NCBI RefSeq assembly: GCF_000970305.1
Contig: NZ_CP009517.1
Location: 1,674,001 to 1,738,000 of the forward strand
Origin: Methanosarcina barkeri 3
Lineage (GTDB): Archaea > Halobacteriota > Methanosarcinia > Methanosarcinales > Methanosarcinaceae
DNA: 64,000 nucleotides
Direction: 5' to 3'
Shown: positions 20,261-39,669 of the stretch, piece after piece
Position numbering within the stretch: position 1 is the first letter of the stretch
How the letters are laid out: each line of letters begins with the position of its first letter
Program-made: the position numbers and the translations under genes
Notes under the pieces: model-generated
The model's database searches: none
What the model was told of the DNA's origin: nothing
The model's input: the letters and a program-made list of their open reading frames with translations, nothing else

Positions 20261-20761
20261 ATGAAAATCGGTAAGATATTGATTCTATGCACCATTACAG
20301 GATTGATAGCAGTTCCTACGGTTTCTACTGAAAAATTATACTTACAAAATTCGAAGAGTAAAGTTATTTTAGATTCAATGAAAAAAAAATTACATTATTA
20401 GTACTTTTACAGAGAAGTCTTTTGCTACATAAAAATTTTTTCCTTTTATAGTTAACGCAGTCCATAAGCCAGGGGCAAACAATAACTAACAATGTAAATG
20501 TGGGATCAGGAGTGAATCATCTCGAAGTTGATTTAAACTGGAGAGATACACCAGTGATTCCCTGACTCTTAGTGCTTATACTCCCTCAGGAAGCAAACTC
20601 GGAACTTACCGCGATAACTCTGACGGAAGCGTAAATGGTAGGATACATATCAATATAGACCACTCCCAGGGATATGTGCAACAGGGAACATAGAATCAAA
20701 AGTTTATGGAGAATCGATTAGTGGAACTAAGGACTACACGTTTAATGTTTACCAACATTAA
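20261..20761 (+). pseudogene. Decayed secreted PPC-like protein (cassette copy I)
   Basis: This is a broken copy of the intact gene at 33117-33614. It starts with the same signal peptide (MKIGKILILCTITGLIAVPT) but the frame stops at 20401 after 46 codons. Downstream, segments matching the intact protein are found in shifted frames: SQGQTITNNVNVGSG, LEVDLNWRDT, and a C-terminal end FNVYQH with stop at 20759-20761. At least two frameshifts and substitutions separate them. The 3' end still overlaps the regulator gene by 17 bases, as in the intact copy. Confidence 0.85.
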
Positions 20762-21488
20762 GCTTGAAAAAAAGCTTATCTTCTGTTTACTATTTTTCCT
20801 TTTAACAACAACAGCCAGGGCTACAGAATATACTGTAAGTCCTTTTCCGAGCGATCAGTCTGGAGCTTCAATTAACGGAGAAAAAGTAGTAAAACTTGAG
20901 GATACCGTAATACCTTACTGGCAGTTTTTGCTCTGGCTAGCTGCGATGCAAATATTATCAGTAATAGACGTAATTCTATACTTTACAAAATTCATTTTCA
21001 TAATACTCGGATTTCGAGCTGCTGACCATCCAAGTACTGTTGGAACTCTAAAGAGAAAGTACATATATGCTTTCATCAAAGCTTGTCCAGGGACGTGTAT
21101 CAGCGAGATTGCAAGTGATATGAGCCTTAGTAGGGGATCTCTTCGTTATCATCTCGATATTCTCGAAGCAGAAAATATTATTGAAGCCCACAATGACTGT
21201 GGAAAGATCCGGTATTTCCAGAATAATTCTACATACAGTGAGGAAGAAAAACTGGTTATTTCAGTCCTTCAAAATGAGATGACCCGGAAAATAGTTCTGA
21301 AAATATTAAAGGAAGAATGCAACACCAATGGAGACCTTGCCCGAATAACAGGAGTTTCCAAAAGTGCAATTACCAGGTACATGAAGCAGTTGAATGAGTC
21401 AGGCCTGATTAACGAAAATAAGATGGGAAAGAATACAATATACAGTATAAACCCTGTTTATAGGGATGCAATTGAAAAACATGTTTAA
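20745..21488 (+). CDS. Membrane-anchored regulator with two winged-helix domains (cassette copy I)
   Basis: A 247-residue protein. After an N-terminal hydrophobic segment (LIFCLLFFLLTTTARA) comes a short external part, then a long hydrophobic stretch (about residues 55-90) and a cytoplasmic part with two winged helix-turn-helix domains: residues about 100-165 (ISEIASDMSLSRGSLRYHL) and about 170-245 (DLARITGVSKSAITRYMKQL). The architecture matches archaeal predicted regulators with two HTH domains (COG3398-like). It presumably senses something at the membrane and binds DNA directly. The ATG at 20745 is shared by all three copies in the window and lies inside the last codons of the secreted gene, implying translational coupling. 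Confidence 0.85.
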   Translation: MFTNIKLEKKLIFCLLFFLLTTTARATEYTVSPFPSDQSGASINGEKVVKLEDTVIPYWQFLLWLAAMQILSVIDVILYFTKFIFIILGFRAADHPSTVGTLKRKYIYAFIKACPGTCISEIASDMSLSRGSLRYHLDILEAENIIEAHNDCGKIRYFQNNSTYSEEEKLVISVLQNEMTRKIVLKILKEECNTNGDLARITGVSKSAITRYMKQLNESGLINENKMGKNTIYSINPVYRDAIEKHV

Positions 21489-21809: not shown

Positions 21810-22018
21810 CTTCTTTCAGTTCAGGACACTATTTACATTCCAGGAAATCAACGATTTGTCGTATTAAGTATTACTATTGAGAAAATGAAATCAAAGATTA
21901 AACATCAGATTTGATAGTTTAATGATCTGGCTAAAAACTTTGTATTTTATATAGAGTGTGTTAGTAGTGAATTATGGAGTTCAAATTTTCCCTGAAAAAC
22001 CAATTTGAAATCCAAATG

Positions 22019-22076
22019 CAGAGGCTTAATTAAGTTGTCTTTGAAAAGATTTAAGGTTTACTTAATACTGCCTCTG
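22019..22076 (+). ncRNA. Conserved stem-loop in repeat A leader (copy 1)
   Basis: CAGAGGC (22019-22025) pairs with GCCTCTG (22070-22076), and after a 3x3 internal loop ATTAAG (22029-22034) pairs with CTTAAT (22061-22066), leaving a 26-base loop. The same fold is kept in both other copies; copy 3 extends the outer stem by one pair and swaps in a G-T wobble. It may be a transcribed regulatory element of the following small gene; function is inferred only. Confidence 0.5.
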
Positions 22077-22101
22077 GAGTTAAATCACGGGGTAAAAAGA
22101 A

Positions 22102-22320
22102 ATGACAACAAGAGAACACTTAGAAGTATGTACTCTTGTTGCGTTTCTCCTGGTAAGTGTTGAGATTGCTATTGCGCATGGAGAGAGTCTCTATAGTACT
22201 GTGTCTACAATTACTGTTCCATGAGGAAGTTATTACTGTTTTGGAGAGTACGCAAAATCTCCATGATTGGAGAGGTGAAATTTATGCGGAAGGCACTGAA
22301 GATGTGTATGTAATGATCAG
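22102..22320 (+). pseudogene. Decayed small secreted protein in repeat A (copy 1)
   Basis: From the ATG at 22102 a 40-codon frame encodes MTTREHLEV, then a hydrophobic signal-like segment (LVAFLLVSVEIAIA) and HGESLYSTVSTITVP before TGA at 22222. Downstream, GSYYCFGEYAK (same frame) and DWRGEIYAEGTEDVY (other frame) also look like former coding sequence and are present in copy 2. The original was probably a secreted protein of under 100 residues. It might still make the 40-residue peptide. Confidence 0.55.
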
Positions 22321-22335
22321 ATAACACATTTTATA

Positions 22336-23117
22336 TAAGATCCCTCCAACTCAATGCCAAAATTAAGGTTATAGAATGTTTATTTGGGGCAATAGATATG
22401 CCGTTAGAATTCCTCAATAAAAATACACTTTAGAAACTAATTTTTTAGATAAATAGTATATAAAATATTTAAAATCGGTAAATGAGTGATATAATACTTT
22501 GCTTGCTTATAATATAAATTTATTTATAATTGTGGCATCTGACATCATTATCATCCATACGAGATTCAATACTCAAATCAACAAAAACACTTAATCCGTT
22601 AATCGAAGCACTTAAACTCCCTAAACAATTAATAAATCATTTAACGCATGTACTTTAATTGAAGAAGGATTGACACTATATTAGTTGGGTAATAAGGCTT
22701 AATAACTCTTAAAAAAGGATAATCTTTTGAGGAGTATATATAACAATAATATTTTGATTTAAAATTTTAGTTAAAATAATTGTGGAAAATAGTTTCCTAC
22801 CAGTTAGTCTCTAATCTAGATACTTAAGCTATTTGAATAAAGTTTTATAGAGATAATTTATTTGCTCCCATCTTCTCCAATTTTTATAAGCGAAGACAGC
22901 TCAAAAGATAAGAGGATTTATACATCATTTGTGAAGTGATGAGTCATCACAAATTGCCCTCACTTCGTAACAATTAAATATAATTTGGTATGATTGTTCA
23001 TAGATCAAGGTACCGATTTTAGGTATTGGCTTAGAAATTAATCCGTAATTTCCATCCTAAAAATCGACAGTATACAGACAAGAAGTTCTTAACCTAAGCC
23101 CAATGGAGGGAGATTAA
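22336..23117 (+). other. AT-rich intergenic region upstream of the propeller gene
   Basis: About 780 bases with no supported gene. It contains a clear palindrome at 22927-22954 (listed separately) and AT-rich stretches such as 22500-22535 and 22970-22992 that could hold promoters. Confidence 0.45.
22927..22954 (+). promoter_or_regulatory. Palindromic candidate operator
   Basis: GTGATGA-G-TCATCAC (22936-22950) is a perfect 15-base palindrome nested between ATTTGTGA (22927-22934) and TCACAAAT (22947-22954). It is about 165 bases before the start of the propeller-ABC cluster, so it could be an operator for it or a hairpin. No regulator is assigned. Confidence 0.4.
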
Positions 23118-24716
23118 GTGTTCAATAAACAGATCACCCTAACACTGATGTTCATTGCTCTAGTTTGCATATCTTTTCAACCAGTTTCTGCAAATGGTAG
23201 TCTAAAACAGACGAACGTAAGCGTAGTGTCTGATTTGAATCAAACAGCGGGCAAGGATATTATGAGTCTTGTGAATACAAATCGCTTTGATATCGATAGC
23301 AAACCTGTTTTTGATGTAATTTGGAGCCCTGATGGTAGTCATATGCTGTTTGAAGTATTTCTTAATGTAGCTCTGAAAGGGCACTCTGAGCTAGGAGGCA
23401 GTGTAAATGCGCTGTATGCAGCAAATGCGGATGGTTCCGGAATAACGCGTATTGCATGGGCAGAAATGACTTCCAGCAATGGTGGAAAAACAATTACTCC
23501 CCCTGTATGGAGCCAATCTGGCGATTATTTTGCATATATGGAGGTGGTAAAAGGAAGCAATTACAAGACGAAATCTGCTAATATTTCTGTTATGTCAAAC
23601 GATCTAAATCTTATTCAAAAAATAGAGTTAGATCCAAAGATGACAGGATTAGAATCTGATGTACCTAATTTCAAATGGTCTCCAAAAGAAAACAAATTTG
23701 CTGCACTTGTGCCTGGAAAAATTGTCATTTACAATTTGAAGGAAAAAAATGAGTTTAATGTTAGCATTCCAGGTGATAATGTAGAAATAACTGATATGGA
23801 ATGGTCTCCAGATGGTAAGAAAATCGTTTTTTTAAAAAATAGCCATGATATTATCCTTTTAGATGTTGAAAATAGAAAATTCAATCAGATTTACTCCGCA
23901 GAACAGGTTGGAATGTATGGTGAGAAATGGAGTAATGATGGTAAAAAACTAATTTTCTATGAGCTTAAAACATCAGGAAACGTGAATGATGTCAGTTACG
24001 ATATATATGTTATGGATGAAGACTTGGAGAAGCCTGTAAAAATTACAACTCTTTACTCGGGTTCGTCAAGGGTAATAGAATGGTATCCAGACAGTGAAAA
24101 GATTTTGGTTAAAAAATGTGCTGAGAATTCATGTGCACTATACTCGCTCTCAATAACCGGAGAGATGAAAAAACTAATCGAGAAGGCTAGAGATATCGAC
24201 GGGATGGTGGCTTCTAACGGTTATATTTTAGCGACCAGTCTCAATCCAAACTCCAGAACTCCACCTTACATAAGAACGTATGACCTATTTTTGCTCAACG
24301 AATCAGGTGTATTGACAATCGAGAATGTGCCCTATTACACGTTGGAAGGTACAGATGTGCTATTCGCTAAAGATAATAAGATCTCAGTACTGAACACTAG
24401 CACAAATGATATATGGGAATTATCACTACCAGTGAAAAGTATTAATAAGTTCGTTTTGGACCCATCTAAAAACTTCATTGCTGCAGATAACACTATTTTC
24501 GGAATAAATGAACTAGGTACCCATAAACAACTAATTATGGGGAATTATACAGACAGTACAGCCCCTGAAGTAGTGACAATTGAGAAAGATCTGGACGAAC
24601 ATTCGAAAGTAAATACCACTGAAGAAACTTCTGGATTGCCTGGATTTACTTCAATTATTTCATTTATAGGGATATTTATTGCATTCATCTGCATACATAT
24701 GAAAAAAATAAGGTGA
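23118..24716 (+). CDS. Secreted TolB/PD40-type beta-propeller protein with PGF-CTERM-like anchor
   Basis: A 532-residue exported protein starting at GTG with GGAGGG seven bases upstream. It has a signal peptide (about residues 1-25), then a beta-propeller built of WSPDG-type blades (WSPDGSH, WSPKENK, WSPDGKK, WSNDGKK, WYPDSEK). The end has a Thr-rich spacer, GLPGFTS, a hydrophobic segment and a basic tail, which fits a PGF-CTERM sorting signal processed by an archaeosortase. It is followed ten bases later by an ABC-2 permease gene, an arrangement repeated (in broken form) at 29.6-31.5 kb. It may be the external partner of that transporter. Confidence 0.85.
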   Translation: MFNKQITLTLMFIALVCISFQPVSANGSLKQTNVSVVSDLNQTAGKDIMSLVNTNRFDIDSKPVFDVIWSPDGSHMLFEVFLNVALKGHSELGGSVNALYAANADGSGITRIAWAEMTSSNGGKTITPPVWSQSGDYFAYMEVVKGSNYKTKSANISVMSNDLNLIQKIELDPKMTGLESDVPNFKWSPKENKFAALVPGKIVIYNLKEKNEFNVSIPGDNVEITDMEWSPDGKKIVFLKNSHDIILLDVENRKFNQIYSAEQVGMYGEKWSNDGKKLIFYELKTSGNVNDVSYDIYVMDEDLEKPVKITTLYSGSSRVIEWYPDSEKILVKKCAENSCALYSLSITGEMKKLIEKARDIDGMVASNGYILATSLNPNSRTPPYIRTYDLFLLNESGVLTIENVPYYTLEGTDVLFAKDNKISVLNTSTNDIWELSLPVKSINKFVLDPSKNFIAADNTIFGINELGTHKQLIMGNYTDSTAPEVVTIEKDLDEHSKVNTTEETSGLPGFTSIISFIGIFIAFICIHMKKIR

Positions 24717-24725
24717 GGGTTAATT

Positions 24726-25631
24726 GTGGAAAAATATCGGAATGTGTTTGTGATTGCACAAAAAGAATTTGCAGACAATATATGGAGCCCGAGGTTCACA
24801 ATACTCATCTTGGTATTCACAACTATTGTTTTTTCAATAAGTTATGATTCTGGAATTGGGCCAGAAGGGAATGCCATATCCAGAGGTTATCTTGATATTT
24901 CTCATATTGTTTCCCTCTTCTTGCCATTTATGGGAATTGCACTTGGTTTCGATGCAATTAGCAAAGAGAGGGAGTCAAAGTCTTTGAATGTGCTTCTGAC
25001 GCATCCAATATATAGGGATAATATCATTGCTGGAAAAGCGCTTGGAGCAATGATTACATTAATTCTGGTAGTATTTATATCAATTTTCACAACTCTTGGA
25101 ACAATACTTTTAGCATCAGGAACCGAGTTAAGTTCACCAATTCTAAATCGATTGGTAATCTTTGCAATTCTTACATACCTATATCTATCAATATTTCTGT
25201 CACTTGGCATACTTAGTTCGATTGTGACAAAAAATGCCACAAAATCATTAGTATACAACATAGCGATCTGGGTTGTGTTATGTATTGTATTTGGTATGAT
25301 TTGTGCTACAACTGCTTCTATTATAACTGAGCATAAACCATTGGATTTAGATGATAACGAGCGTTTTTTAAGACTTAACGCAGATATTCAAAAATTGACG
25401 CCATCACATCATTATGCTATGGCGGTAAGTGGTAGACCTAGTTTGAGTTGGTTGGGTGTTTCGAGTGAGAAACCAAGCGTGGAAGGGATATTTGACATGG
25501 AATATACGCTGGGACAGTGGTGGAATGAACTCTGGATAAATGTTCTAATTTTGATTATTACTCCTGTTTTTTTAATTATAGTAGCATTTATAATGTTTTT
25601 GCGCCAGGATGTATCAAAGGATATGGGGTAA
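24726..25631 (+). CDS. ABC-2 type permease (NosY-like), first of tandem pair
   Basis: A 301-residue membrane protein with about six helices. The N-terminal VFVIAQKEFADNIWSPRF segment and ISKERESKSLNVLLTHPIYRDNII loop are typical of NosY/COG1277 permeases. It begins with GTG at 24726 behind GGTGAG and follows the propeller gene by ten bases. It is paralogous to the next gene (similar TGKALG/LLTHPI loop). No ATPase gene is directly adjacent; the one at 28.4 kb could serve it. Confidence 0.85.
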   Translation: MEKYRNVFVIAQKEFADNIWSPRFTILILVFTTIVFSISYDSGIGPEGNAISRGYLDISHIVSLFLPFMGIALGFDAISKERESKSLNVLLTHPIYRDNIIAGKALGAMITLILVVFISIFTTLGTILLASGTELSSPILNRLVIFAILTYLYLSIFLSLGILSSIVTKNATKSLVYNIAIWVVLCIVFGMICATTASIITEHKPLDLDDNERFLRLNADIQKLTPSHHYAMAVSGRPSLSWLGVSSEKPSVEGIFDMEYTLGQWWNELWINVLILIITPVFLIIVAFIMFLRQDVSKDMG

Positions 25632-25636
25632 CTCGC

Positions 25637-26506
25637 ATGAAAGATAATAATGTTTTTGTGGTTGCTCAAAAAGAGGCTGCTGACCACCTTCAAGATGCCG
25701 GATTTTTGGTGTTGCTTGCAACATATACTGTAATAGTGTTTGCTTCTACCTATATGCTTGGTTCCTTGGCGCATGACGATAATTCAGTACTTCTGAGTAG
25801 CATTAATGTCAAAATGATATCCCAATTTACTCCATTACTTGGTATAGTTCTGGGATTCGATGTAGTTGTCAGAGAACAGAAATCTGGATCACTCAATGTG
25901 TTATTAACTCATCCAATATTCAGAGATAATATTCTCACAGGGAAATTACTTGGATCAACGTTATTGATAGCTGCTATAATCATATTTTCGGTTTTTGTAT
26001 CTGTAGGAACACTCTTGGTCTTCTATGGTGTTGAGATCGGATATATTGAACTTATCAGAATAGCCGTGTTCACCATTCTCACATTTTTCTATGCGGTGAT
26101 ATTTTTGGGAATTGCAATTCTTATCTCAACGATAGTAAAAAACTCCACTGATTCACTGACCTGCAACATTATTATATGGATTTTTATTTGCATACTATTT
26201 GGTGCAATTCTTAAGACAGTTGTTGCCATATTGACAGGTCAAACATCGAATGAAGGTATATTAATCACACAACTTTTGAATATATCACCACTGCATCACT
26301 ATGGAGAGGCTGTAATTGGCAGAACTGATTTGAGTTTTATGGGAGTTAACGTAGAACCAATGGTTGGAGGGATTTTCGATACTAAATATACTCTCACTCA
26401 GTGCTTAACAGAATTCTGGATGAATATTGTAGTGCTGATAATAACTCCGGTTGTATTGTTTATAATAACTTTCATTACATTTCTTAGGAAAGACATTACT
26501 CTGTAA
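25637..26506 (+). CDS. ABC-2 type permease (NosY-like), second of tandem pair
   Basis: A 289-residue paralogue of the preceding gene, five bases downstream. It keeps the VVAQKEAADHLQDAGF N-terminus, the VREQKSGSLNVLLTHPIFRDNI loop and six hydrophobic segments. The two probably form a heterodimeric channel. Substrate unknown. The operon appears to end here at repeat A copy 2. Confidence 0.85.
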   Translation: MKDNNVFVVAQKEAADHLQDAGFLVLLATYTVIVFASTYMLGSLAHDDNSVLLSSINVKMISQFTPLLGIVLGFDVVVREQKSGSLNVLLTHPIFRDNILTGKLLGSTLLIAAIIIFSVFVSVGTLLVFYGVEIGYIELIRIAVFTILTFFYAVIFLGIAILISTIVKNSTDSLTCNIIIWIFICILFGAILKTVVAILTGQTSNEGILITQLLNISPLHHYGEAVIGRTDLSFMGVNVEPMVGGIFDTKYTLTQCLTEFWMNIVVLIITPVVLFIITFITFLRKDITL

Positions 26507-26878
26507 AGTGATAAAATGATATACAAAAAAGATAGAATTTGCTGCAAGGTACCTCTATCTGAGAACAATTGATGGTGTTACTTCATTATTGTGAACTTCC
26601 AGGGGAATGTCAGTTTATGGGATTCAGGTGATCGAATTCTTAAGAAAGAACTCACATTTTTTCGGTTTAGGACATAACTTATACCCAGAAAATCGAACGA
26701 TTTGTCATGTTAAGTATTACCGATAAAAAGAAATCAAAGTTCAGTTGTTTGATTTGATAATTTAATAATGTGGATAGTTTAATAATCTGGCTAAAAACTT
26801 TGTATTTTATATAGAGTGTGTTAGTAGTGAATTATGGAGTTCAAATTTTCTCTGAAAAACCAATTTGAAATCCAAATG

Positions 26879-26936
26879 CAGAGGCTTAATTAAGTTGTCT
26901 TTGAAAAGTTTTAAGGTTTACTTAATCCTGCCTCTG
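26879..26936 (+). ncRNA. Conserved stem-loop in repeat A leader (copy 2)
   Basis: Same paired segments as copy 1: CAGAGGC/GCCTCTG outer stem and ATTAAG/CTTAAT inner stem. Differences from copy 1 are confined to the loop and the 3-base internal bulge (ACT to CCT), so pairing is preserved. Confidence 0.5.
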
Positions 26937-26961
26937 GAGTTAAATCACGGGGTAAAAAGAA

Positions 26962-27190
26962 ATGACAACAAGAGAACACTTAGAAATGATGTACTCTTGT
27001 TGCGTTTCTCCTGGTAAGTGTTGAGGTTGCTATTGCGCATAGAGAGAGTCGCTATAGTATTGTGTCTACAATTACTGTTCCATGAGGAAGTTATTACTGT
27101 TTTGGAGAGTACGCAAAAGCTCTGTGATTGGAGAGGTGAAATTTATGCGGAAGGCACTGAAGATGTGTACAGGGATCAGATAACATATTT
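26962..27190 (+). pseudogene. Decayed small secreted protein in repeat A (copy 2)
   Basis: The ATG at 26962 begins MTTREHLEM but a one-base change relative to copy 1 moves the frame, and it stops after 18 codons. Later segments GSYYCFGEYAKA and DWRGEIYAEGTEDVYRDQITY match copy 1 in other frames. Clearly no longer coding for the full product. Confidence 0.65.
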
Positions 27191-27274
27191 CATATGACAT
27201 AGTCTGCTTAGAATTTTTTTAATAGATCTCTTTTGCTGGTTTTGAAACCATAATATTTTTTGAAATGTGATATT

Positions 27275-27652
27275 ATGAAAACTAGGAATTCATTGCTTAT
27301 AGGAATAGTGATTGGGCTTGTATTATTCGGATTTTTTAAATTTTTAGGGCTTGATCAAACGTACGGAGGAATTATAGGTGCATTTATTGTAGGTATACTA
27401 ATTGGTAAAACTATAGGCAAAGGCTCGGAGAAATATGCTTTTTTTTCGATATTTATGTATAACCTGATTGGCTGGATTTTAGTATTTTTGCTTACTTCCG
27501 ATGGAAAGATTGCGTTGCAATATGGCGGTATAGCTTTATCTGCTCTTGTTGGAATTTTGCTTATTATGGTCTTTTTTTATTCAATAATCGGATCCTTTGC
27601 GGCATTTGCTACCTCCAACCTGAGCAGGAATAAAGAGGGTCAAGGATTATGA
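27275..27652 (+). CDS. Small four-helix membrane protein, hypothetical
   Basis: A 125-residue protein with four hydrophobic helices and glycine-rich turns (GGIIGAFIVGILIGKTIGKG). It resembles small archaeal membrane proteins of unknown function such as DUF5518, without certainty. The ATG at 27275 is preferred over one at 27260. It overlaps the next permease gene by four bases and so belongs to the ABC operon. Confidence 0.65.
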   Translation: MKTRNSLLIGIVIGLVLFGFFKFLGLDQTYGGIIGAFIVGILIGKTIGKGSEKYAFFSIFMYNLIGWILVFLLTSDGKIALQYGGIALSALVGILLIMVFFYSIIGSFAAFATSNLSRNKEGQGL

Positions 27653-28398
27653 ATTTCTCGGAAATACAGATCATTGGGGAAGATGAAACATTCAAAGGTT
27701 CAAAAAGCAAATATGTATGGCTCTTTGGTGGAATTTTTGTCTTTCTTTGTTTCCTAGCAATGCACTACAGTACGTATATATCCTTTTTATTTCCAATTTC
27801 CAAAGGCATTCCATATTCTTTAATTTCGTATATGGTGGTATTGTCTATCGGACCTTTTATTATTTTGATAACATCTTTTGATATCGTAAGCAGCGAAATC
27901 GAAACGGGATCGGCAAGATACATTATCTCCAAGGTTCATAGATCATCTTTCATTTTAGGAAAGTTTTTCTTTCTGTTTTTAGTATTTATCTCTGTTTCCT
28001 CTGGAATTGCACTTATAAGCTTGATGTATCAGTATTCTGAGGGTAATACCTTTCAGCTCAAAAATATCGTTTTGTTCTGGATTCTTTCAAGCCTTTATTT
28101 GGGCTGCTTCATAAGTATTTTTTTATTCATTTCAACGTTGTCTGTAAATAACAAAGTTTCATTTACAATGTCTGCGGTCTTTCTTGGAATTTTGATATTT
28201 TTCATTTTACAGGGACATGATAACTATCTAAAATATCTCACCCCCTTCTATTACGGTGCTAAAAATATAGATCTGATGACAGGTTTCCCGGTTGGGGCTG
28301 GATACCTCACGGTTTTTGAAAGCCTGTTTTCAATGTTCCTGTACATGCTGGTCTTTTTGTCTATGAGTTTGCTGGCTATTAAACGGAGGGATTTATAA
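27649..28398 (+). CDS. ABC-2 type permease
   Basis: A 249-residue membrane protein with about six helices. The loop DIVSSEIETGSARYIISKVHRSSFILGKF is the ABC-2/NosY-type cytoplasmic element. It sits between the small membrane protein (four-base overlap) and the ATPase gene (five bases downstream), with which it should form one exporter. Confidence 0.85.
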   Translation: MNFSEIQIIGEDETFKGSKSKYVWLFGGIFVFLCFLAMHYSTYISFLFPISKGIPYSLISYMVVLSIGPFIILITSFDIVSSEIETGSARYIISKVHRSSFILGKFFFLFLVFISVSSGIALISLMYQYSEGNTFQLKNIVLFWILSSLYLGCFISIFLFISTLSVNNKVSFTMSAVFLGILIFFILQGHDNYLKYLTPFYYGAKNIDLMTGFPVGAGYLTVFESLFSMFLYMLVFLSMSLLAIKRRDL

Positions 28399-28403
28399 TT
28401 ACC

Positions 28404-29330
28404 TTGGCTATTTCTACCAGAAACCTGTACAAAAAATACGGTTCTCGCTTTGTTCTGGAAAATCTTTCCTTGAATGTAGAAAAAGGGAGTATCTACGGTT
28501 TTTTGGGCCAGAATGGTGCCGGAAAAACGACTACAATAAAATTGCTGTCAGGACTTTCAACACCTGCGCAAGGACAGATTTTTGTTGAGGGTATGGATTT
28601 GTCTTCCGAATCAGGAAAGATTAAACAGATTCTGGGTCTGGTTCCCCAGGATTCCAGTTTTTACGACGAAAGGACAGCCTTAAGCCACATGGTCTATTAC
28701 GGCAGATTAAAAGGTCTGAGTAAAAAAGAAAGCCTGGAGCAATCCAGGGTTTTATTGGACCAGGTTGGGCTTGGCAATGAAATGTTCAAAAGGGTGGGAT
28801 ATTTTTCCCATGGTATGAAAACAAGACTGGGAATTGCGCAGGCTCTTTTGAATGATCCAAAAATACTGATTCTTGACGAGCCTACAAATGGCCTTGACCC
28901 TGTTGGGATCCGGCAAATCCGGCAAATTCTTCGTGAGTGCAATAATGAAGGAATCACAATATTTCTTTCATCCCACAACCTGCTGGAAATACAGGAGATT
29001 TGTACCCATGTAGGAATTCTGAATAAAGGCAAACTTATAGCTGAAAGCACAATTGAAAAAATTCGTCACCTTGAGTCAAACGGGGTTATTACGATTGGGG
29101 TCTACAATCTCTCTGCTGAGATGATTTATTTAATCGAGAATATGGAGTTTGTCGTAAAAACCGAATTGAAAGCCGAACATATTCTTGAAATTTTCGTAAA
29201 CTCCAGGAAAGACGTCAAACCGGAAATCAACAGGTTAATTGTTGAAAGTGGAGGCCAGGTTTTCAAACTTATAGAAAACTCTCTCTCATTGGAAGATGCA
29301 TTTTTTGATGCTACCGGAATAAAACTTTAA
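28404..29330 (+). CDS. ABC transporter ATP-binding protein
   Basis: A 308-residue ATPase with Walker A GQNGAGKTT, Q-loop, signature FSHGMKTRLG (SHG in place of SGG), Walker B KILILDEPTNGLD and switch histidine in LSSHNLLEI, followed by a C-terminal domain typical of NatA/NosF-type ATPases. It begins with TTG at 28404; GGAGGG lies 13 bases upstream, slightly far. It energises the permease encoded just upstream and possibly also the paired permeases at 24.7-26.5 kb. Confidence 0.88.
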   Translation: MAISTRNLYKKYGSRFVLENLSLNVEKGSIYGFLGQNGAGKTTTIKLLSGLSTPAQGQIFVEGMDLSSESGKIKQILGLVPQDSSFYDERTALSHMVYYGRLKGLSKKESLEQSRVLLDQVGLGNEMFKRVGYFSHGMKTRLGIAQALLNDPKILILDEPTNGLDPVGIRQIRQILRECNNEGITIFLSSHNLLEIQEICTHVGILNKGKLIAESTIEKIRHLESNGVITIGVYNLSAEMIYLIENMEFVVKTELKAEHILEIFVNSRKDVKPEINRLIVESGGQVFKLIENSLSLEDAFFDATGIKL

Positions 29331-29595
29331 TTTCAGGTAGGAAGCCTATCTTTTTACATTTAAAGATCAATCGATTGATGCTGAGTCAGATAAAATGGAA
29401 AAATCTTGCTACCACATTGGCAAAAAGAAAAGAACGGTCAATAGGCAACAATTTAAAAATTAGTTCATATAGATTCGCTCATTTAAATTTAAGACGATAA
29501 TGAATGAAGTAGTTTCATATAGGCCGAATAGTTATAACTTTTCATCATATTGAATAAAGTTGAGGAGCAATAAATTTAAATTTGCGAGGGATTAC

Positions 29596-31368
29596 ATGCC
29601 AAGAATACTGAAAATAAACTTGCTCTTAATATTACTAATCTTAAGCATATCTACAGGTCTTGCAGCTTCACCTGAAAATCTTAGTGTGAGCGTTGAAAAA
29701 ATTACGTCCATATCACAAATAGTGAAACCCTATTTTGACAACCTTGTAGTATCCTCAGGAACCAATCTTAAAGAACGACCTGTAATTGGAGGTTCATGGA
29801 GTCCTGACGGCAGTAGACTAGAAGTAGGAGAATCAATCAACCGTCAGAGAGGAGTCACCCTTCATGCAACATATATATTGAATGCAGATGGAAGTGGAAT
29901 TCGAGAACTCGCATCAACTCCAAACAATACGAATGAAGGATCCCTGACTCTGGGCATGACATCCTGGAGTCCAGATGGAAATCGAATCGTAATTTTTTCA
30001 AATATATTCAATGTAAGGGACTTCTATATATTTGCAGATCCAGATAAAACGCTAATCAAGACGGCAGGTAAATGTAATTATACAACAGTTGACGAAATCA
30101 GGAAAAATATTCTGGATATTGAATGGCAGAATAATTTGATGTGGAACCCAGAAGGCACAAAAGCTCTTGCATTGATGGATCAAGACACTATCCCTCTAAA
30201 TTATCAATTATATTTACTTGACTCAAACGGCTTAATACTTCAACAGCTTACTGATGTGTCTAATAATGTAGGGTTTGCATTGTGGAGTTATGACGGCAAA
30301 AAAATAGCATATAGTGCTACTGGCCAGCCTGAAAATGAAAATGGACTATGGACAGTTAATGAAAATGGGACCGTCAGGAAGAGACTTAATGACAATGGAA
30401 TTCTGGTTGCCTGGAGCCCTGATGACAGCAGAATATTCTATTTTGATGAAAACTCCAGTCTCTATTCAATTAAGGTTGATGGGACAGATAGAGTTCAGCT
30501 TTCAAAAGAATTTTCCCCAAGTGAAGATGTTTTCGAATTTAGTCAAGATGGAAAAAAACTGATTTTCAGTGCTATAAACTCTGACAAAGTAACTATATAC
30601 ATAGCTGAATCTACAGGAAAAAATGTAAAAGCTCTTCAAGAGTTTCCAGGGTATATTATCTTCAAACCTAGCTGGAGCCCGAAAGGAGATAAAATAGCTT
30701 TTACACAGGACGATGACCTTTATACAATAAATCCCGACGGAAGCGAAAAAAGTCTTATTGCATCCGCAATAACCGACTACGAATGGCATCCTTCGGGAGA
30801 ATTTATCAGTTTTGTTTCATCAGGTTCTGTTTTTGCTGCAAGCCCGGATGGATCGACAAAAATAAAGCTTGCTGAAGACGGTAGGTTTCTTGAAGGCTGG
30901 AGTCCTGACGGCAGCAGACTGCTTGTATCTCAATATGGATTCACAGGGCTATTCATAATAAAACTCGAAGGATACGAAGACCCTCTCTCAATTGATTTCC
31001 TGACACCTGTAGAAGAAAATTGCCAGCTAAGAATTCGCTGCATGTCGGAACCGATTGCAGATGCGTTACTGACTCTTAATGGAAAAGAAATCGGTCTTAC
31101 AAATAGTTCAGGCTTCCTGAACTACAGTTGTCCTGATGAAGGCAGATATGTGATAAATGCCAGCAAAACAGGACATAGGTCTGCAAGTAAAGTTCTTGTC
31201 GTGCAAGAGAATTCCTCAGCGTCTCCGGTTAAGTCAGCAGTTCCTGAACCATCATCTGATTCTGGAAACAAGAATCTCACCAGATCTGAAACCCAAATTC
31301 CAGGGTTCAGGGGAATTACCACATTTTTAATCCTGGCTTTTTTCGTTATCAGGAGGAGTTCTTTATGA
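29596..31368 (+). CDS. Secreted TolB/PD40 beta-propeller protein with PGF-CTERM-like anchor (second copy)
   Basis: A 590-residue protein paralogous to the gene at 23118. The ATG at 29596 with GAGGG six bases upstream is chosen over a TTG at 29560. It has a signal peptide, propeller blades with WSPDGS/WSPDGN/WSPDDS/WSPKGD motifs, a small carboxypeptidase-regulatory-like beta domain near residues 470-540 (LTNSSGFLNYSCPDEG), and the C-terminal IPGFRGITTFLILAFFVIRR. The stop overlaps (ATGA) the start of a truncated permease fragment, so this was once a propeller-permease operon like the first. Confidence 0.85.
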   Translation: MPRILKINLLLILLILSISTGLAASPENLSVSVEKITSISQIVKPYFDNLVVSSGTNLKERPVIGGSWSPDGSRLEVGESINRQRGVTLHATYILNADGSGIRELASTPNNTNEGSLTLGMTSWSPDGNRIVIFSNIFNVRDFYIFADPDKTLIKTAGKCNYTTVDEIRKNILDIEWQNNLMWNPEGTKALALMDQDTIPLNYQLYLLDSNGLILQQLTDVSNNVGFALWSYDGKKIAYSATGQPENENGLWTVNENGTVRKRLNDNGILVAWSPDDSRIFYFDENSSLYSIKVDGTDRVQLSKEFSPSEDVFEFSQDGKKLIFSAINSDKVTIYIAESTGKNVKALQEFPGYIIFKPSWSPKGDKIAFTQDDDLYTINPDGSEKSLIASAITDYEWHPSGEFISFVSSGSVFAASPDGSTKIKLAEDGRFLEGWSPDGSRLLVSQYGFTGLFIIKLEGYEDPLSIDFLTPVEENCQLRIRCMSEPIADALLTLNGKEIGLTNSSGFLNYSCPDEGRYVINASKTGHRSASKVLVVQENSSASPVKSAVPEPSSDSGNKNLTRSETQIPGFRGITTFLILAFFVIRRSSL

Positions 31369-31454
31369 CGGTAGATTTGAGAAATACTGGAGTTATTGTT
31401 CAAAAAGAGTTCGCAGATCACCTTTACAGCCCTAGTTTCAGAATATTATTTTGA
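31365..31454 (+). pseudogene. N-terminal fragment of an ABC-2 permease
   Basis: An ATG overlapping the propeller stop opens 29 codons: MTVDLRNTGVIVQKEFADHL and YSPSFRILF, then TGA. This matches the first 30 residues of the permease at 24726 (VFVIAQKEFADNIWSPRFTIL). The remainder of the permease is absent; sequence from a regulator cassette follows within 70 bases. It marks the end of a truncated duplicate of the 23-26 kb cluster. Confidence 0.85.
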
Positions 31455-31524
31455 ATTTTTAGTATTGAAGGAGTATAAAATGAAGTAAATATAACTTAAA
31501 TGTTAAAAAGACTGAAAGAATATC

Positions 31525-31634
31525 TCAGTATAGATCTCCCCCAGGGATACGTGCAACAAGGAACATGGAAGTTCAAAGTTTACGGAGAATCGGTTAGTGG
31601 AACACAGTATACGTTTAATGTTTACCAGCATTAA
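31525..31634 (+). pseudogene. 3' fragment of the secreted PPC-like gene (cassette copy II)
   Basis: Only the last third of the secreted gene remains, reading DLPQGYVQQGTWKFKVYGE and then YTFNVYQH before TAA at 31632-31634. It matches the C-terminus of the intact copy at 33117-33614. The regulator start codon still lies within it. Confidence 0.85.
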
Positions 31635-32373
31635 GCTTGAAAAAAAGCTTATCTTCTGTTTACTATTTTTTCTTTTAGTAACAACAGCCAGGGCTACAGA
31701 GTATACTGTAAGTCCTTTTCCGAGCGATAAATTTGGGGAGTCAATAGCTGGAGAAGATGTACAGATAGTAGAAGATACTGTAATACCTTACTGGCAGTTT
31801 CTAATCTGGCTAGCTGCGATGCAAATCTTATCAATAATAGACGTAATTCTATACTTTACAAAGTTCATTTTCATAATACTCGGATTTCGAGCTGCTGACC
31901 ATCCAAGTACTGTTGGAACTCTAAAGAGAAAATACATATATGCTTTCATTAAAGCTTGCCCAGGGACGTGTATCAGCGAGATTGCAAGTGATATGAGCCT
32001 GAGCAGGGGATCTCTTCGATATCATCTCGAGATTCTAGAAGCAGAAAATATGATTGAAGCCCACAATGACTGCGGAAAGATCCGGTATTTCCAGAATAAT
32101 TCTACATACAGTGAGGAAGAAAAACTGGTTATTTCAGTCCTTCAAAATGAGATGACCCGGAAAATAGTTCTGAAAATATTAAAGGAAGAATGCAACACCA
32201 ATGGAGACCTTGCCCGAATAACAGGAGTTTCCAAAAGTGCAATTACCAGGTACATGAAGCAGTTGAATGAGTCAGGCCTGATTAACGAAAATAAGCTGGG
32301 AAAGAGTACAATATACAGTATAAATCCTGTTTATAGGGATGCAATTGAAAAAATGTATTTAAAATTCTCTTAA
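31618..32373 (+). CDS. Membrane-anchored regulator with two winged-helix domains (cassette copy II)
   Basis: A 251-residue protein almost identical to copy I except in the short extracellular segment (FGESIAGEDVQIVEDTVIPY versus SGASINGEKVVKLEDTVIPY) and at the C-terminus. Same layout: hydrophobic N-terminus, external loop, membrane segment, two winged helices. That the intracellular part is more conserved than the external loop suggests the copies read different external cues but recognise the same DNA. It starts 17 bases before the end of the secreted-gene fragment. Confidence 0.85.
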   Translation: MFTSIKLEKKLIFCLLFFLLVTTARATEYTVSPFPSDKFGESIAGEDVQIVEDTVIPYWQFLIWLAAMQILSIIDVILYFTKFIFIILGFRAADHPSTVGTLKRKYIYAFIKACPGTCISEIASDMSLSRGSLRYHLEILEAENMIEAHNDCGKIRYFQNNSTYSEEEKLVISVLQNEMTRKIVLKILKEECNTNGDLARITGVSKSAITRYMKQLNESGLINENKLGKSTIYSINPVYRDAIEKMYLKFS

Positions 32374-32559
32374 AAGTGGATTTACTTCAGGACAAAACAT
32401 TTTAAAAACGTTCAAATAAATGAAGATATTAAATCCCATCTTTTGCTTAAACTCATAGTTCTTCAAGATTTATTTTCTGGAACTTCCTGCAATATGGGTA
32501 TGACTTTATACCTGCAACTGGGTTTTTTGCCTTGCTTTTTGAAGAATTGATTCTGTATG

Positions 32560-32880
32560 CAAAAGATAGTTTAATTATTTGGCTAAAAACTTTTCACTTT
32601 ATATAGAATATGTTAGTATTAAATTATGGAGTTCAATATCTCTGAAAAAACCATTGAAATCCAAATGACCAGAGGCTTAATTAAGTTAGCTCTGAAAAGT
32701 TTTGAGGTTTACTTAATCCTGTCTCTGGAGTACATCACGGGGTGAAAGGAAATGACAACAAGAGAACACTTAGAAACGGTGTACTCTTGTTGCGTTTCTG
32801 CTACTAAATACTGAGGCTTCTAAGACTCATGGAGAGAATAACTATAGCACTATGTCTACAGTTACTGTTCCGAATATTCT
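32560..32880 (+). repeat. Long dispersed repeat A, copy 3 (diverged)
   Basis: A shorter and more diverged copy of the repeats at 21.8 and 26.7 kb. The leader, stem-loop, CACGGGGT box and start of the small reading frame are kept; the 3' part is different. It follows cassette copy II as copy 1 follows cassette copy I. Confidence 0.8.
32669..32728 (+). ncRNA. Conserved stem-loop in repeat A leader (copy 3)
   Basis: CCAGAGGC (32669-32676) pairs with GTCTCTGG (32721-32728), with one G-T pair, and ATTAAG (32680-32685) with CTTAAT (32712-32717). Relative to copies 1 and 2 the outer stem is one pair longer and one pair is replaced by a wobble, so structure persists despite sequence change. Confidence 0.5.
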
Positions 32881-32920
32881 GGAGAGAATTCAAATCCAGC
32901 TTATAAAACTTACGGTTTAA
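32752..32920 (+). pseudogene. Decayed small secreted protein in repeat A (copy 3)
   Basis: Starts MTTREHLETV at 32752 and is soon out of frame. A shifted frame gives VAFLLLNTEASKTHGENNYS and TMSTVTVPN, matching the signal-like region and HGE..YST.ST.TVP of copy 1. The end is unrelated to copies 1 and 2. Confidence 0.6.
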
Positions 32921-33116: not shown

Positions 33117-33614
33117 ATGAAAATCTGTAAGATGTTGATTTTATGCTTTATTATAGGATTGATAGCAGTCCCTACGGTTTCTGCCGAAAAAGGATACGCA
33201 GAAAACTCGAAAAATAAAGTTGTTTTAGATTCCGCGGACAAAGATTATATTGTTAGCTCCTGGATAGAAAATTCTTCTGGTACAGAAAATCTCCTTTCTA
33301 TATTGTTAACTCAGTCCATAAGTCAGGGGCAAACAATAACTAACAATGTAAATGTGGGATCAGGAGTGAATTATCTCGAAGTTGATTTAAACTGGGGAGA
33401 TACAAGTGATTCCCTGACTCTTAGTGTTTATACACCCTCAGGAAGCAAACTCGGAACTTACAGCGATAACTCTGACGGAAGCGTAAATGGTAGGATACGC
33501 ATCAATATAGATCCCTCCCAGGGATATGTGCAACAGGGAACCTGGAAGTTCAAGGTATACGGGGAGTCTATTAGTGGAACACAGAGCTATACATTTAATG
33601 TTTACCAGCACTAA
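33117..33614 (+). CDS. Small secreted protein with PPC-like beta domain (intact cassette copy III)
   Basis: A 165-residue exported protein. A signal peptide (about residues 1-23, ending TVSA) is followed by a linker and a beta-sandwich resembling bacterial pre-peptidase C-terminal (PPC) domains: LEVDLNWGDTSDSLTLSVYTPSGSKLG pattern, then QGYVQQGTWKFKVYGES and a closing YTFNVYQH. PPC domains are non-catalytic. The last 17 bases overlap the regulator gene downstream, so the secreted protein and the membrane regulator are probably made together; it could be a ligand, sensor partner or product controlled by that regulator. Confidence 0.8.
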   Translation: MKICKMLILCFIIGLIAVPTVSAEKGYAENSKNKVVLDSADKDYIVSSWIENSSGTENLLSILLTQSISQGQTITNNVNVGSGVNYLEVDLNWGDTSDSLTLSVYTPSGSKLGTYSDNSDGSVNGRIRINIDPSQGYVQQGTWKFKVYGESISGTQSYTFNVYQH

Positions 33615-34342
33615 GCTTGAAAAAAAGCTTATCTTCTGTTTACTATTTTTTCTGTTAACAACAACAGCGCAAGCTACAGAATATATTGTAAGTCCAGCTC
33701 CAGGTGATCAAGCCGGAGCTTCAATTAACGGAGAAAAAGTAGTTGAACTTGAAGTCACTCAGATACCTTACTGGCAGTTTCTGCTCTGGCTGGCTGCAAT
33801 GCATATATTATCAATAATAGATGTAATTCTGTACTTTACAAAGCTCATTTTCGTGGTACTGGGATTCAAAATTGTAGATAAAAAGAAATATACTAGAAAA
33901 TCCTGATAGGTCCAGTATTTATACGTATATCAGGACTAAACCGGGAGCATATATTGGTGAAATTGTAGAAAAAACCGGCTTAGTCAGGGGAAAAGTAAGG
34001 CATCACATAAATATTCTGGAAGTTCAGAATAAAATTGAAGTCCATAAAGACGGCGGAAAAATTAGATATTTCGAAAATAATTCCACTTATGATGAAGAAG
34101 AAAGAAAAATTATTTCTGCTCTTCAAAACGTAACAAACCAAAGAATAATTTCAGAAATACAAAATGGAAAATGTAATACAAACTCAGCTCTTGCACATGA
34201 AATCGGAGTTTCCAGAGCTACAATTAGCTGGTATATGAGAACTCTTAAAGAAGTGGAACTCATAAATGAAGAAAGAAAAGGAAAAAACATCATTTATAGA
34301 GTAAATCCTTCTTATGAAAACTTGATTGAAAAATATGGATAA
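33598..34342 (+). pseudogene. Frameshifted membrane-anchored double winged-helix regulator (cassette copy III)
   Basis: From the ATG at 33598, the hydrophobic N-terminus, external loop and membrane segment read normally to LGFKIVDKKKY, then stop at 33904-33906. The two winged helices (GEIVEKTGLVRGKVRHHINI and LAHEIGVSRATISWYMRTL) continue in the +1 frame to TAA at 34340-34342. The shift lies near the A-rich run 33880-33889. A single-base change would restore a full-length protein of about 248 residues. It is more diverged than copies I and II. Either a recent pseudogene, a sequencing error in a homopolymer, or a recoding site. Confidence 0.8.
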
Positions 34343-34363: not shown

Positions 34364-34721
34364 AAAAATACTGATTATCAAAAAGTTCCTGAAAAAATTC
34401 GCTTTAATCTCATTAAGTCCTTTTTTAATTGGGCAAATCTTTTTTCTCCAATCTACTTAATTCTTAAACCCTGAGTCTATATGGTCTCAAGAATAAAAGC
34501 TGACTTCATCCGTCTTACGGGGTAAAAAGGCATGGTGACAAAGTTTTAAAATCAGATGGTCTCTTAAAGTCCGATTTTGCCATAGAAAAATACAGTATCT
34601 CAAAGAACATATCAGCCATTCTTTTTCAGCAAAAAGCCTGGTTACTAGCTGTAGACTTTAAGTAATTTGCATCAAACTGCTCTATATATAACTTCCGGCC
34701 AATCTCTCTAACTGTTTTTTG
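34364..34721 (+). repeat. Long dispersed repeat B, copy 1
   Basis: About 358 bases that recur at 38798-39151 with high identity. It includes TTCATCCGTCTTACGGGGTA, a start-like ATG followed after five codons by a stop, and ends in CTTCCGGCCAATCTCTCTAA. The ACGGGGTAAAAAGGCATG box resembles the one in repeat A. It carries no intact gene. Confidence 0.85.
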
Positions 34722-34782
34722 TAGCTCATTTTAGAGCTGTAAAGATTCTCTGATCTCTGACAGTTAGAGAGATTGGCCGGAA
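34693..34782 (+). repeat. Long perfect inverted repeat
   Basis: TTCCGGCCAATCTCTCTAAC + TGT (34693-34715) is exactly complementary to 34760-34782, a 23-base stem with a 44-base spacer that itself has an AGCTC/GAGCT hairpin. It overlaps the end of repeat B; in repeat B copy 2 only the left arm is intact. It could be a transcript hairpin before the next secreted gene or the ends of a small mobile element. Confidence 0.8.
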
Positions 34783-34952
34783 AACTTATAAAGGATTCTC
34801 CAAAACTAAATAAGTGGGAATGTTCTACAGGGTTCAGTAGAGTTGAGAGCAATGCTGAACCCTGCATACCCGAAGGCATGAAGTGTATAACTTTATAACT
34901 ATTTTAAAGTTTGCTTCTTGCCTCTTGAATAAAAGTAAAGAGGTGAATATAA

Positions 34953-35435
34953 ATGATCACAAAGAAATTTGGCACCGGAACATTGTTTTTGACAATGTTC
35001 CTAATATGTATGGCTTTTATGCCGGCAGCCAATGCAGAAGAAGCTGTTAATGTAGTGGAGAATGCTAAAGATGGATATGTCGGAATCCTGTCCCCTATAT
35101 TGTACATAGATATTAGTGGGGATTTAAGTCAGCCCTCAAACACAGATACCTACTACTTTACTGTACCGTCTGGAAAGGGCTGGGACAGAGTATCAGCAGA
35201 TGTGCTAGTATCCAATATACACACTCTTGATATAAATGGTGATATTAGTATAGAATTAATCAAGCCAGACGGCACAAAGGTAGCTGGCGACACTATATAT
35301 GGTACTGAGACTCATTTGGATTTCAACTATGATCCCGGTTATGACCTAACAGCAGGTACCTGGAAAATCAAGGTTAAAGGCGTTGACCTAAATGGTACTC
35401 CTGGATACGATGGTTCAGCAATTGTTTATAATTGA
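34953..35435 (+). CDS. Small secreted protein with PPC-like beta domain
   Basis: A 160-residue exported protein: signal peptide (about residues 1-28, ending ANA), then a beta domain with a DTYYFTVPSGKGWDRVSADV / IELIKPDGTKVAGDT / LTAGTWKIKVKGVD pattern like a PPC domain. It shares the general plan of the 33117 gene but little sequence identity. AGAGGTG lies eight bases before the ATG. No regulator gene follows; a NosD-like gene begins 90 bases downstream. Confidence 0.75.
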   Translation: MITKKFGTGTLFLTMFLICMAFMPAANAEEAVNVVENAKDGYVGILSPILYIDISGDLSQPSNTDTYYFTVPSGKGWDRVSADVLVSNIHTLDINGDISIELIKPDGTKVAGDTIYGTETHLDFNYDPGYDLTAGTWKIKVKGVDLNGTPGYDGSAIVYN

Positions 35436-38797: not shown

Positions 38798-39151
38798 AAA
38801 AATACTGATTATCAAAAAGTTCCTGAAAAAGTCTGCTTCAATCTCATTACATTCTTTTTAATTGGGCAGATCTTTTTTCTCCAATCTACTTATTCTCAAA
38901 CCCTGAATCTATATAGTTCCAAGAATAAAAGCTAACTTCATCCGTCTTGCGGGGTAAAAAGGCATGATGACAAAGTTTTGAAACCAGATGGTCTCGTAAA
39001 GTCCGATTTTGCTATAGAAAAATACAGTATCCCAAAGAACATATCAACTGTTCTTTTTCAACAAAAGTCTGGTTACTAGCTGTAGATTTTAAATAATTTG
39101 CATCAAACCGCTCTATATAAAACTTCCGGCCAATCTCTCTAACTGTTTTTT
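38798..39151 (+). repeat. Long dispersed repeat B, copy 2
   Basis: Second copy of the sequence at 34364-34721, including GCGGGGTAAAAAGGCATGAT and CTTCCGGCCAATCTCTCTAA. The complementary right arm of the inverted repeat is not conserved here. The 520 bases after it (39152-39669) hold nothing that could be identified. Confidence 0.85.
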
Positions 39152-39669
39152 ATTAACCCATTTCCGATCTGTAGATATTTTCTTTTATTTGATTGTTTGA
39201 TAGATTACACATAAAACTTTTAAAGGATTATGAATTTTTAGACAATGAAAGTGTTTTTAGGGTTAAGCAGTGGCTGTTAATTTTGCTTAATCCTGAATGC
39301 TTCAAAGGAAAAGCCGGTGACTACAAGATAATTTAGAGTTTGATATGTCTTTACTCCTGTTTGCAGACTATTAATCCTCCGATAGCTGTACTATAGCAAT
39401 TCAAAAAATAAACAAGTATCTGATATAAGAGAGTGGTTCTCTGGTCTCATTAACTCAGTTTGCAGACACTCTCATACTTGTCTTAGTAGTCCCTGGCTTC
39501 ATCCTATATCTTACAGTTCAAAAATGAAATCATAAGCGGAATCGCAGTTAGGTGCCTTGTAAAATTCGGTCTTACCATCAAAAAGACTGTATTTTTAAAA
39601 TAATCTATTAATCCCTTTATTGAGAAAAAAACTTTCGAGTATTGAAGTGCAGGTATAAGTAGTCCACGT

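Follow-up and report, generated by a model that had tools for sequence, protein, structure and literature searches.

A structured mRNA leader of exported-protein genes in methane-cycling archaea that may act as a translational switch

Introduction

Three times within one 64,000-nucleotide stretch of Methanosarcina barkeri 3 DNA (the whole stretch that was analysed, called the window here), the same hairpin stands in front of the remains of a small secreted-protein gene. Why is a leader kept when the gene behind it is broken, and what is such a leader for? To our knowledge, cis-regulatory RNA families are few in Archaea. Here we describe the leader, the genes that it serves in other loci and genomes, and the pairing by which it may control translation.

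Three leader copies in the window

The three hairpins of repeat A were found where they had been reported, at 22019-22076, 26879-26936 and 32669-32728 (copies 1-3). In copy 1, the outer stem CAGAGGC/GCCTCTG occupies 22019-22025/22070-22076 and the inner stem ATTAAG/CTTAAT occupies 22029-22034/22061-22066; the same outer stem recurs in copy 2 at +4860. Copy 3 has an outer stem that is longer by one pair (CCAGAGGC/GTCTCTGG) and contains one G-U pair, as described before. This hairpin, which we call P2, is one part of a repeat unit of up to some 400 nt. The unit consists of a promoter (AAAAACTTTG..TTTATATA), a 5' hairpin that is absent from the preliminary description (P1, TGGAGTTCAAA/TTTGAAATCCA), P2, the segment CACGGGGT, an ATG and a broken reading frame, in this order. 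The RNA folding of all three copies beats that of dinucleotide shuffles (z of -2.1, -3.0 and -1.95). The features of the three copies are as follows, with R1 denoting the covariance model introduced below and RBS the ribosome-binding site.

21913-21972, plus strand: promoter region of copy 1 (A-rich element and TTTATATA box), recognised from repeat families and conserved in the decayed branch
26773-26832 and 32565-32624, plus strand: the same promoter region in copy 2 and copy 3
21973-22104, plus strand: leader copy 1, full covariance-model match (R1, 96.5 bits, E 6.8e-25), with P1 at 21975-21985/22004-22014, P2 at 22019-22076, RBS-like CACGGGG at 22086-22092 and ATG at 22102-22104
26833-26964, plus strand: leader copy 2 (R1, 98.9 bits, E 1.4e-25), with P2 at 26879-26936 and ATG at 26962-26964
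32625-32754, plus strand: leader copy 3 (R1, 75.1 bits, E 6.2e-19), with P2 at 32669-32728 and ATG at 32752-32754
22102-22320, plus strand: small secreted-protein gene remnant of copy 1, with frameshifts and stops
about 26962-27180 (copy 2) and about 32752-32920 (copy 3), plus strand: the same gene remnant, with frameshifts and stops
22106-22141, plus strand: start-codon hairpin of copy 1, CAACAAGAG/CTCTTGTTG (arms 22106-22114/22133-22141), recognised from column conservation
26966-26974/26994-27002, plus strand: arms of the start-codon hairpin of copy 2

Three near-identical winged-helix regulators, one of them truncated, are located at window positions 20706-21488, 31597-32373 and 33526-33906 and are MM2441-like by position. 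These regulators and repeat A are markers of a block of genes for secreted proteins and ABC transporters that has been duplicated in tandem.

A widespread leader family with a conserved structure

In a DNA search, 23 of 31 Methanosarcina genomes gave matches, and many of these matches precede intact genes. A consensus DNA pattern found nothing in the named genomes, and a second one matched Methanosarcina sp. DH2 and one metagenome bin. We built the covariance model R1 from 17 leaders of intact genes, none of which is of the window type. In the window, its four best matches comprise copies 1-3 of repeat A and one further leader, the fourth, at 34826-34955 (73.6 bits). The window copies were found by a model trained without them (E from 1e-25 to 6e-19), and this is therefore an independent confirmation of repeat A. 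About 21 R1 copies are present at E <= 1e-5 in the M. barkeri 3 genome (4.56 Mb, one contig). The covariance-model search of Methanosarcina that had been proposed earlier, performed here with this model from intact relatives, gave matches in 27 of the 31 genomes. R1 matches were found in 69 of 112 genomes and 11 of 14 genera of the family Methanosarcinaceae, and in 99 of 186 genomes and four families across the order. Weaker matches, with E from 1e-7 to 3e-13, occur in four more families elsewhere in the phylum, and we take them as true members because they also run into the start codons of signal-peptide proteins.

The structure is conserved through changing sequences. Across 108 R1 matches, both partners vary in 21 of the 27 pairs and 90.3% of cells are paired, in an alignment fitted to R1, which favours pairing; slid alignments were at most 54% paired, and none of 500 shuffles reached the observed value. 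A plain MAFFT alignment already had six compensatory pairs, and compensatory changes recur in the leaders of the other families. A lack of such changes in further copies was to count against the RNA element first proposed for this locus, and the idea survived. The reading of repeat A as an RNA element and not a plain gene remnant is supported by the compensatory changes in its relatives and by the position of the element before intact genes in dozens of genomes. What the preliminary description missed is that this is a widespread leader of exported-protein genes, of which the window copies are a decayed branch, and that it likely controls the RBS. The promoter, the fourth leader and the sRNA162 gene facing that leader are likewise new relative to that description.

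The leader combines a compensated structure with a fixed position directly upstream of coding genes, as expected of a structured cis-regulatory RNA, and the start codon directly follows the RBS in most R1 matches. A mobile hairpin repeat (MITE or REP-like) was considered and rejected: the leaders end at the start codon in nearly all cases and are not scattered. In the window and the tested leader loci, no Rfam 15 family overlaps the leaders on the sense strand at gathering score, and the Rfam matches at permissive E-values were chance only. A search of largely open-access literature found no earlier description of the leader family. The leader thus apparently represents an undescribed structured RNA family, of which a single member had already been studied.

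Genes served by the leader

In 77 of 85 distinct cases, the gene behind the leader encodes a protein with a Sec-type signal peptide, versus 11 of 94 background ORFs, which were taken from eight other genome regions. This stricter signal-peptide test and random genome regions were used because a lax hydrophobicity test gave a high background. The mature parts of the proteins form 26 clusters without detectable similarity to one another, and the Pfam peptidases among them include M12 (17 members), C39 (8), M10 (3) and C70 (2). A very similar signal peptide (..FVPAVSA) was observed before unrelated mature domains in L132-L142 and other leader genes. Judging from these sequences, it is as if the leader and the signal peptide were a module swapped between genes. 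One exception is a conserved leader gene encoding a 147-aa protein (MCEKQKSELL..., L144, L149 and L164) with no signal peptide at its predicted start.

Two competing helices at the ribosome-binding site

The 3' arm of P2 reads GCCTCxy and mimics the 16S anti-Shine-Dalgarno sequence, and the RBS reads yxGAGG. Pairing between the two would form another helix, P3, which is mutually exclusive with P2. The arm-RBS duplex has a mean of -8.0 kcal/mol in 48 representatives, compared with -6.3 +/- 0.22 for exchanged partners (0 of 5000 reach it), and of -9.4 compared with -8.5 +/- 0.19 kcal/mol in the distant families (0 of 5000). The two bases next to this core, one directly after CCTC and one directly before GAGG, make G-C, U-A, C-G or A-U pairs in 37 of 58 leaders, with 22.8 expected; these pair counts and the partner-exchange permutations ignore shared ancestry. 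The excess of the P3 duplex and the covariation of its flanking base suggest that both P2 and P3 are kept by selection. As the two helices are exclusive yet both co-vary, we read the leader as a translational switch.

When the 5' strand of P2 was blocked in silico, RBS openness dropped from 0.57 to 0.03 (77 leaders), and to 0.12 when the 3' parts were exchanged; this comparison, too, ignores shared ancestry. P2 is more stable than P3 in all 77 leaders (-24.4 vs -8.3 kcal/mol), and an RBS-open default is therefore expected. We note that the default state is uncertain, because global folds predicted only 47 of the 77 free leaders to be RBS-open, and some leaders of the sRNA162 type discussed below (L173) were predicted to be folded shut without the sRNA. 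Riboswitches are recognised by a mutually exclusive helix controlling expression, and such a helix is predicted here by computation. From the computed properties, namely the family, its conserved pairs, the competing helices and the gene context, we infer the switching and its direction.

The stability of P2 in every leader would also suit a constitutive leader, in which P1, at the 5' end, could protect the message together with P2, the RBS is kept clear, and P3 is a by-product of RBS-like and anti-RBS-like motifs. We consider this rather unlikely: in each of two separate sets, the P2 arm and RBS of the same leader fit each other better than exchanged partners do, and the base beside the P3 core co-varies, which counts against a by-product because a by-product should not co-vary. 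Competing helices of this type are also found in small-molecule riboswitches, and the terminal loop of P2 is partly conserved (T[AG][CT]TTAA in 81/108, 15/22 and 9/23 leaders of three sets). P2 and this TACTTAA-like loop could therefore be imagined to bind a metabolite that sets P2 against P3. The leader, however, is without the large conserved core typical of most aptamers, and its genes have export in common, not a metabolic pathway, so that such a riboswitch seems improbable.

Upstream of the leader, a promoter motif common to the whole family was sought and rejected, as only some classes share one. P1 is a near-perfect inverted repeat close to the start site, and some elements are common to several promoter classes, which would fit a DNA operator, that is, a palindrome for a transcription factor with the regulon controlled at the promoter. 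Against this stand the covariation of P2 and P3 inside the presumably transcribed leader, the promoters that differ between classes while the leader stays, and the changes of P1 by compensation rather than as one fixed site; we regard it as highly improbable.

We therefore return to the translational switch. Based on these results, it is fairly probable that the cis-acting mRNA leader of ~130-140 nt, found before exported-protein genes of methane-cycling archaea, works in this way. P1 would be located at the 5' end of the message, and P2 would normally be formed, leaving the RBS free. Capture of the P2 5' arm by any partner would release the 3' arm, P3 would then cover the RBS, and translation would stop. 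In Methanosarcina, sRNA162 may be the captor for one member of the family, and the effector of the other members could be another RNA, a protein or a ligand.

The fourth leader and sRNA162

The fourth leader of the window belongs to an intact gene and has a known small RNA on its opposite strand.

34826-34955, plus strand: fourth leader, before an intact gene in an MM2442-like position (R1, 73.6 bits), with P1 at about 34828-34866, P2 5' arm at 34869-34878, 3' arm GCCTCTT at 34920-34926, RBS AAGAGG at 34938-34943 and ATG at 34953
34689-34877, minus strand: sRNA162 homolog, antisense to the P1 hairpin and to the 5' arm of P2 in the fourth leader (RF02792, 162.2 bits, gathering score 78)
34953-35435, plus strand: intact gene behind the fourth leader, for an exported protein of 160 aa (ORF list; signal peptide and RBS)

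In M. mazei, the MM2442 message, with its start mapped by RACE, has a 65-nt overlap with the 5' end of sRNA162, and gel shifts and footprints show that nucleotides 1-65 of sRNA162 bind the MM2442 leader (PMC3510493). From this overlap, the transcription start of the fourth leader should therefore be near 34813, just before P1. At leaders other than that of MM2442, promoter and spacing would be compatible with transcription of the leader as part of the message. An R1 match lies opposite sRNA162 in 22 of 26 sRNA162 loci, nearly all of which have P1 and the 5' arm of P2 covered by the 5' end of the sRNA; no Rfam sRNA162 match was found opposite the three window copies. When the leader was co-modelled with the 65-nt antisense, CCTCTT was freed and paired with the RBS AAGAGG. 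Binding of sRNA162 to P1 and the P2 5' arm is thus predicted to close the RBS of the MM2442 leader. As sRNA162 is nearly confined to Methanosarcina, it cannot be a general effector.

According to the published study, no RBS was found before MM2442, overexpression of sRNA162 changed the MM2442 transcript only slightly, and overproduction of the sRNA162 5' fragment gave no obvious phenotype (PMC3510493). In five loci of other Methanosarcina (L173, L175, L176, L177 and L179), a good RBS (GAGGTG) precedes a TTG, and the first long ATG in the same frame follows this TTG after about 42 nt. This ATG is at +181 to +184 from the inferred start, and the published ATG is at 184 (PMC3510493). The exported protein beside sRNA162 therefore appears, from sequence, to start at the TTG, which would add a basic N-terminus to its signal peptide. 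The proposed switch would offer an answer to a published puzzle, namely by what route sRNA162, although it binds far upstream, could repress MM2442, a gene reported to be RBS-less.

In trans, the 5' part of sRNA162 pairs with other leaders of M. barkeri 3 more strongly than with shuffled leaders in most cases; we draw no conclusion from this, because the antisense of one relative must pair somewhat with the others. A second, weaker sRNA162-like locus is located at window positions 39120-39309 on the minus strand (84 bits); the leader opposite is degenerate, with no R1 match, and the locus is similar to the duplication reported as sRNA171 in M. mazei. The two sRNA162-like loci are each preceded, at 34517-34541 and about 38950-38975, by a leaderless CGGGGTAAAAAGGCATG, which resembles the part of repeat A from RBS to ATG. 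Several leaders (G022 C39 and C1, G036 C1) have a weak sRNA162 match (about 52 bits) exactly opposite them that is full-length, and more leaders may therefore have their own antisense RNA. As sRNA162 starts within a leader, we also considered an antisense promoter built into every leader. On the minus strand, the P2 loop of the distant families has the sequence CTTAAGTA, which would make a poor TATA box, and we take this as a lead only.

The decayed branch in the window

The window copies are a side branch of the leader family. Their reading frame had been described as decayed, and it carries frameshifts and stops in each of the three; it is broken in every copy of the branch that was seen. 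The search for an intact ortholog, suggested at the same time, yielded intact relatives of 138-139 aa (L031, L068 and L184), and a comparison of the decayed protein with viral contigs found no relative. As had been claimed, conservation is higher in the leader than in the coding part, with a mean identity of 0.87-0.90 versus 0.84 in the first codons and 0.69 beyond (22% gaps). The second inverted repeat reported over the first codons (CAACAAGAG/CTCTTGTTG) is real: 12 copies from several species agree in 17 of 18 arm columns, and the sole changed column retains a G-U pair. In the same 12 copies, 8 of 19 columns are invariant in the loop of this start-codon hairpin and 13 of 60 downstream. The hairpin is absent in the intact relatives of the decayed gene, and it persists where the ATG is lost (L009 and L029).

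These observations suggest that the RNA may still matter in a branch whose gene is dead. We note that such conservation is not proof of an RNA role, because gene conversion could also keep the copies alike. The chances are about even that the window copies are plain pseudogene remnants without a role, alike through recent duplication or gene conversion: all frames are broken, and copies 1 and 2 are 95-98% alike within the tandemly duplicated region. On the other hand, broken-frame copies in several other species keep the leader and the start-codon hairpin far better than the remnant, even with the ATG lost. The best explanation of the three window copies is descent from a functional member whose gene died. 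It is possible to go further and propose one ancient RNA switch, present in several orders of methane-cycling archaea, that senses a single cell-wide signal for the translation of exported enzymes, with the decayed copies near sRNA162 serving as stand-alone decoy RNAs (leader plus start-codon hairpin) for its effector. We consider this combined proposal unlikely.

Discussion

If the leader is what we propose, it would be among the largest archaeal cis-regulatory RNA families, with as many as about 30 copies in a genome and roughly 100 genomes within a single order. Its mechanism would be simple and open to test, and the exported proteins that it serves form a clear set, with many predicted peptidases among them.

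In bacterial translational riboswitches and antisense-controlled leaders, two helices compete and one of them hides the ribosome-binding site. The competition between P2 and P3 is similar, as one helix would hide the RBS; in contrast, the present leader is archaeal and tied to exported proteins, not to one metabolic pathway. Another candidate structured RNA of euryarchaea is the flpD motif (RF01737; PMC2864571), to which cmscan at gathering scores assigned neither the window nor any of the leader loci tested. The closest known system is the MM2442 5'-UTR with sRNA162 (RF02792; PMC3510493). The fourth leader is its counterpart, with sRNA162 opposite; the published start is located just before P1, and the published binding region corresponds to P1 and the P2 5' arm. 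The published system was described as a single target without an RBS, whereas here it is placed in a large family, and both an RBS and a competing helix are recognised.
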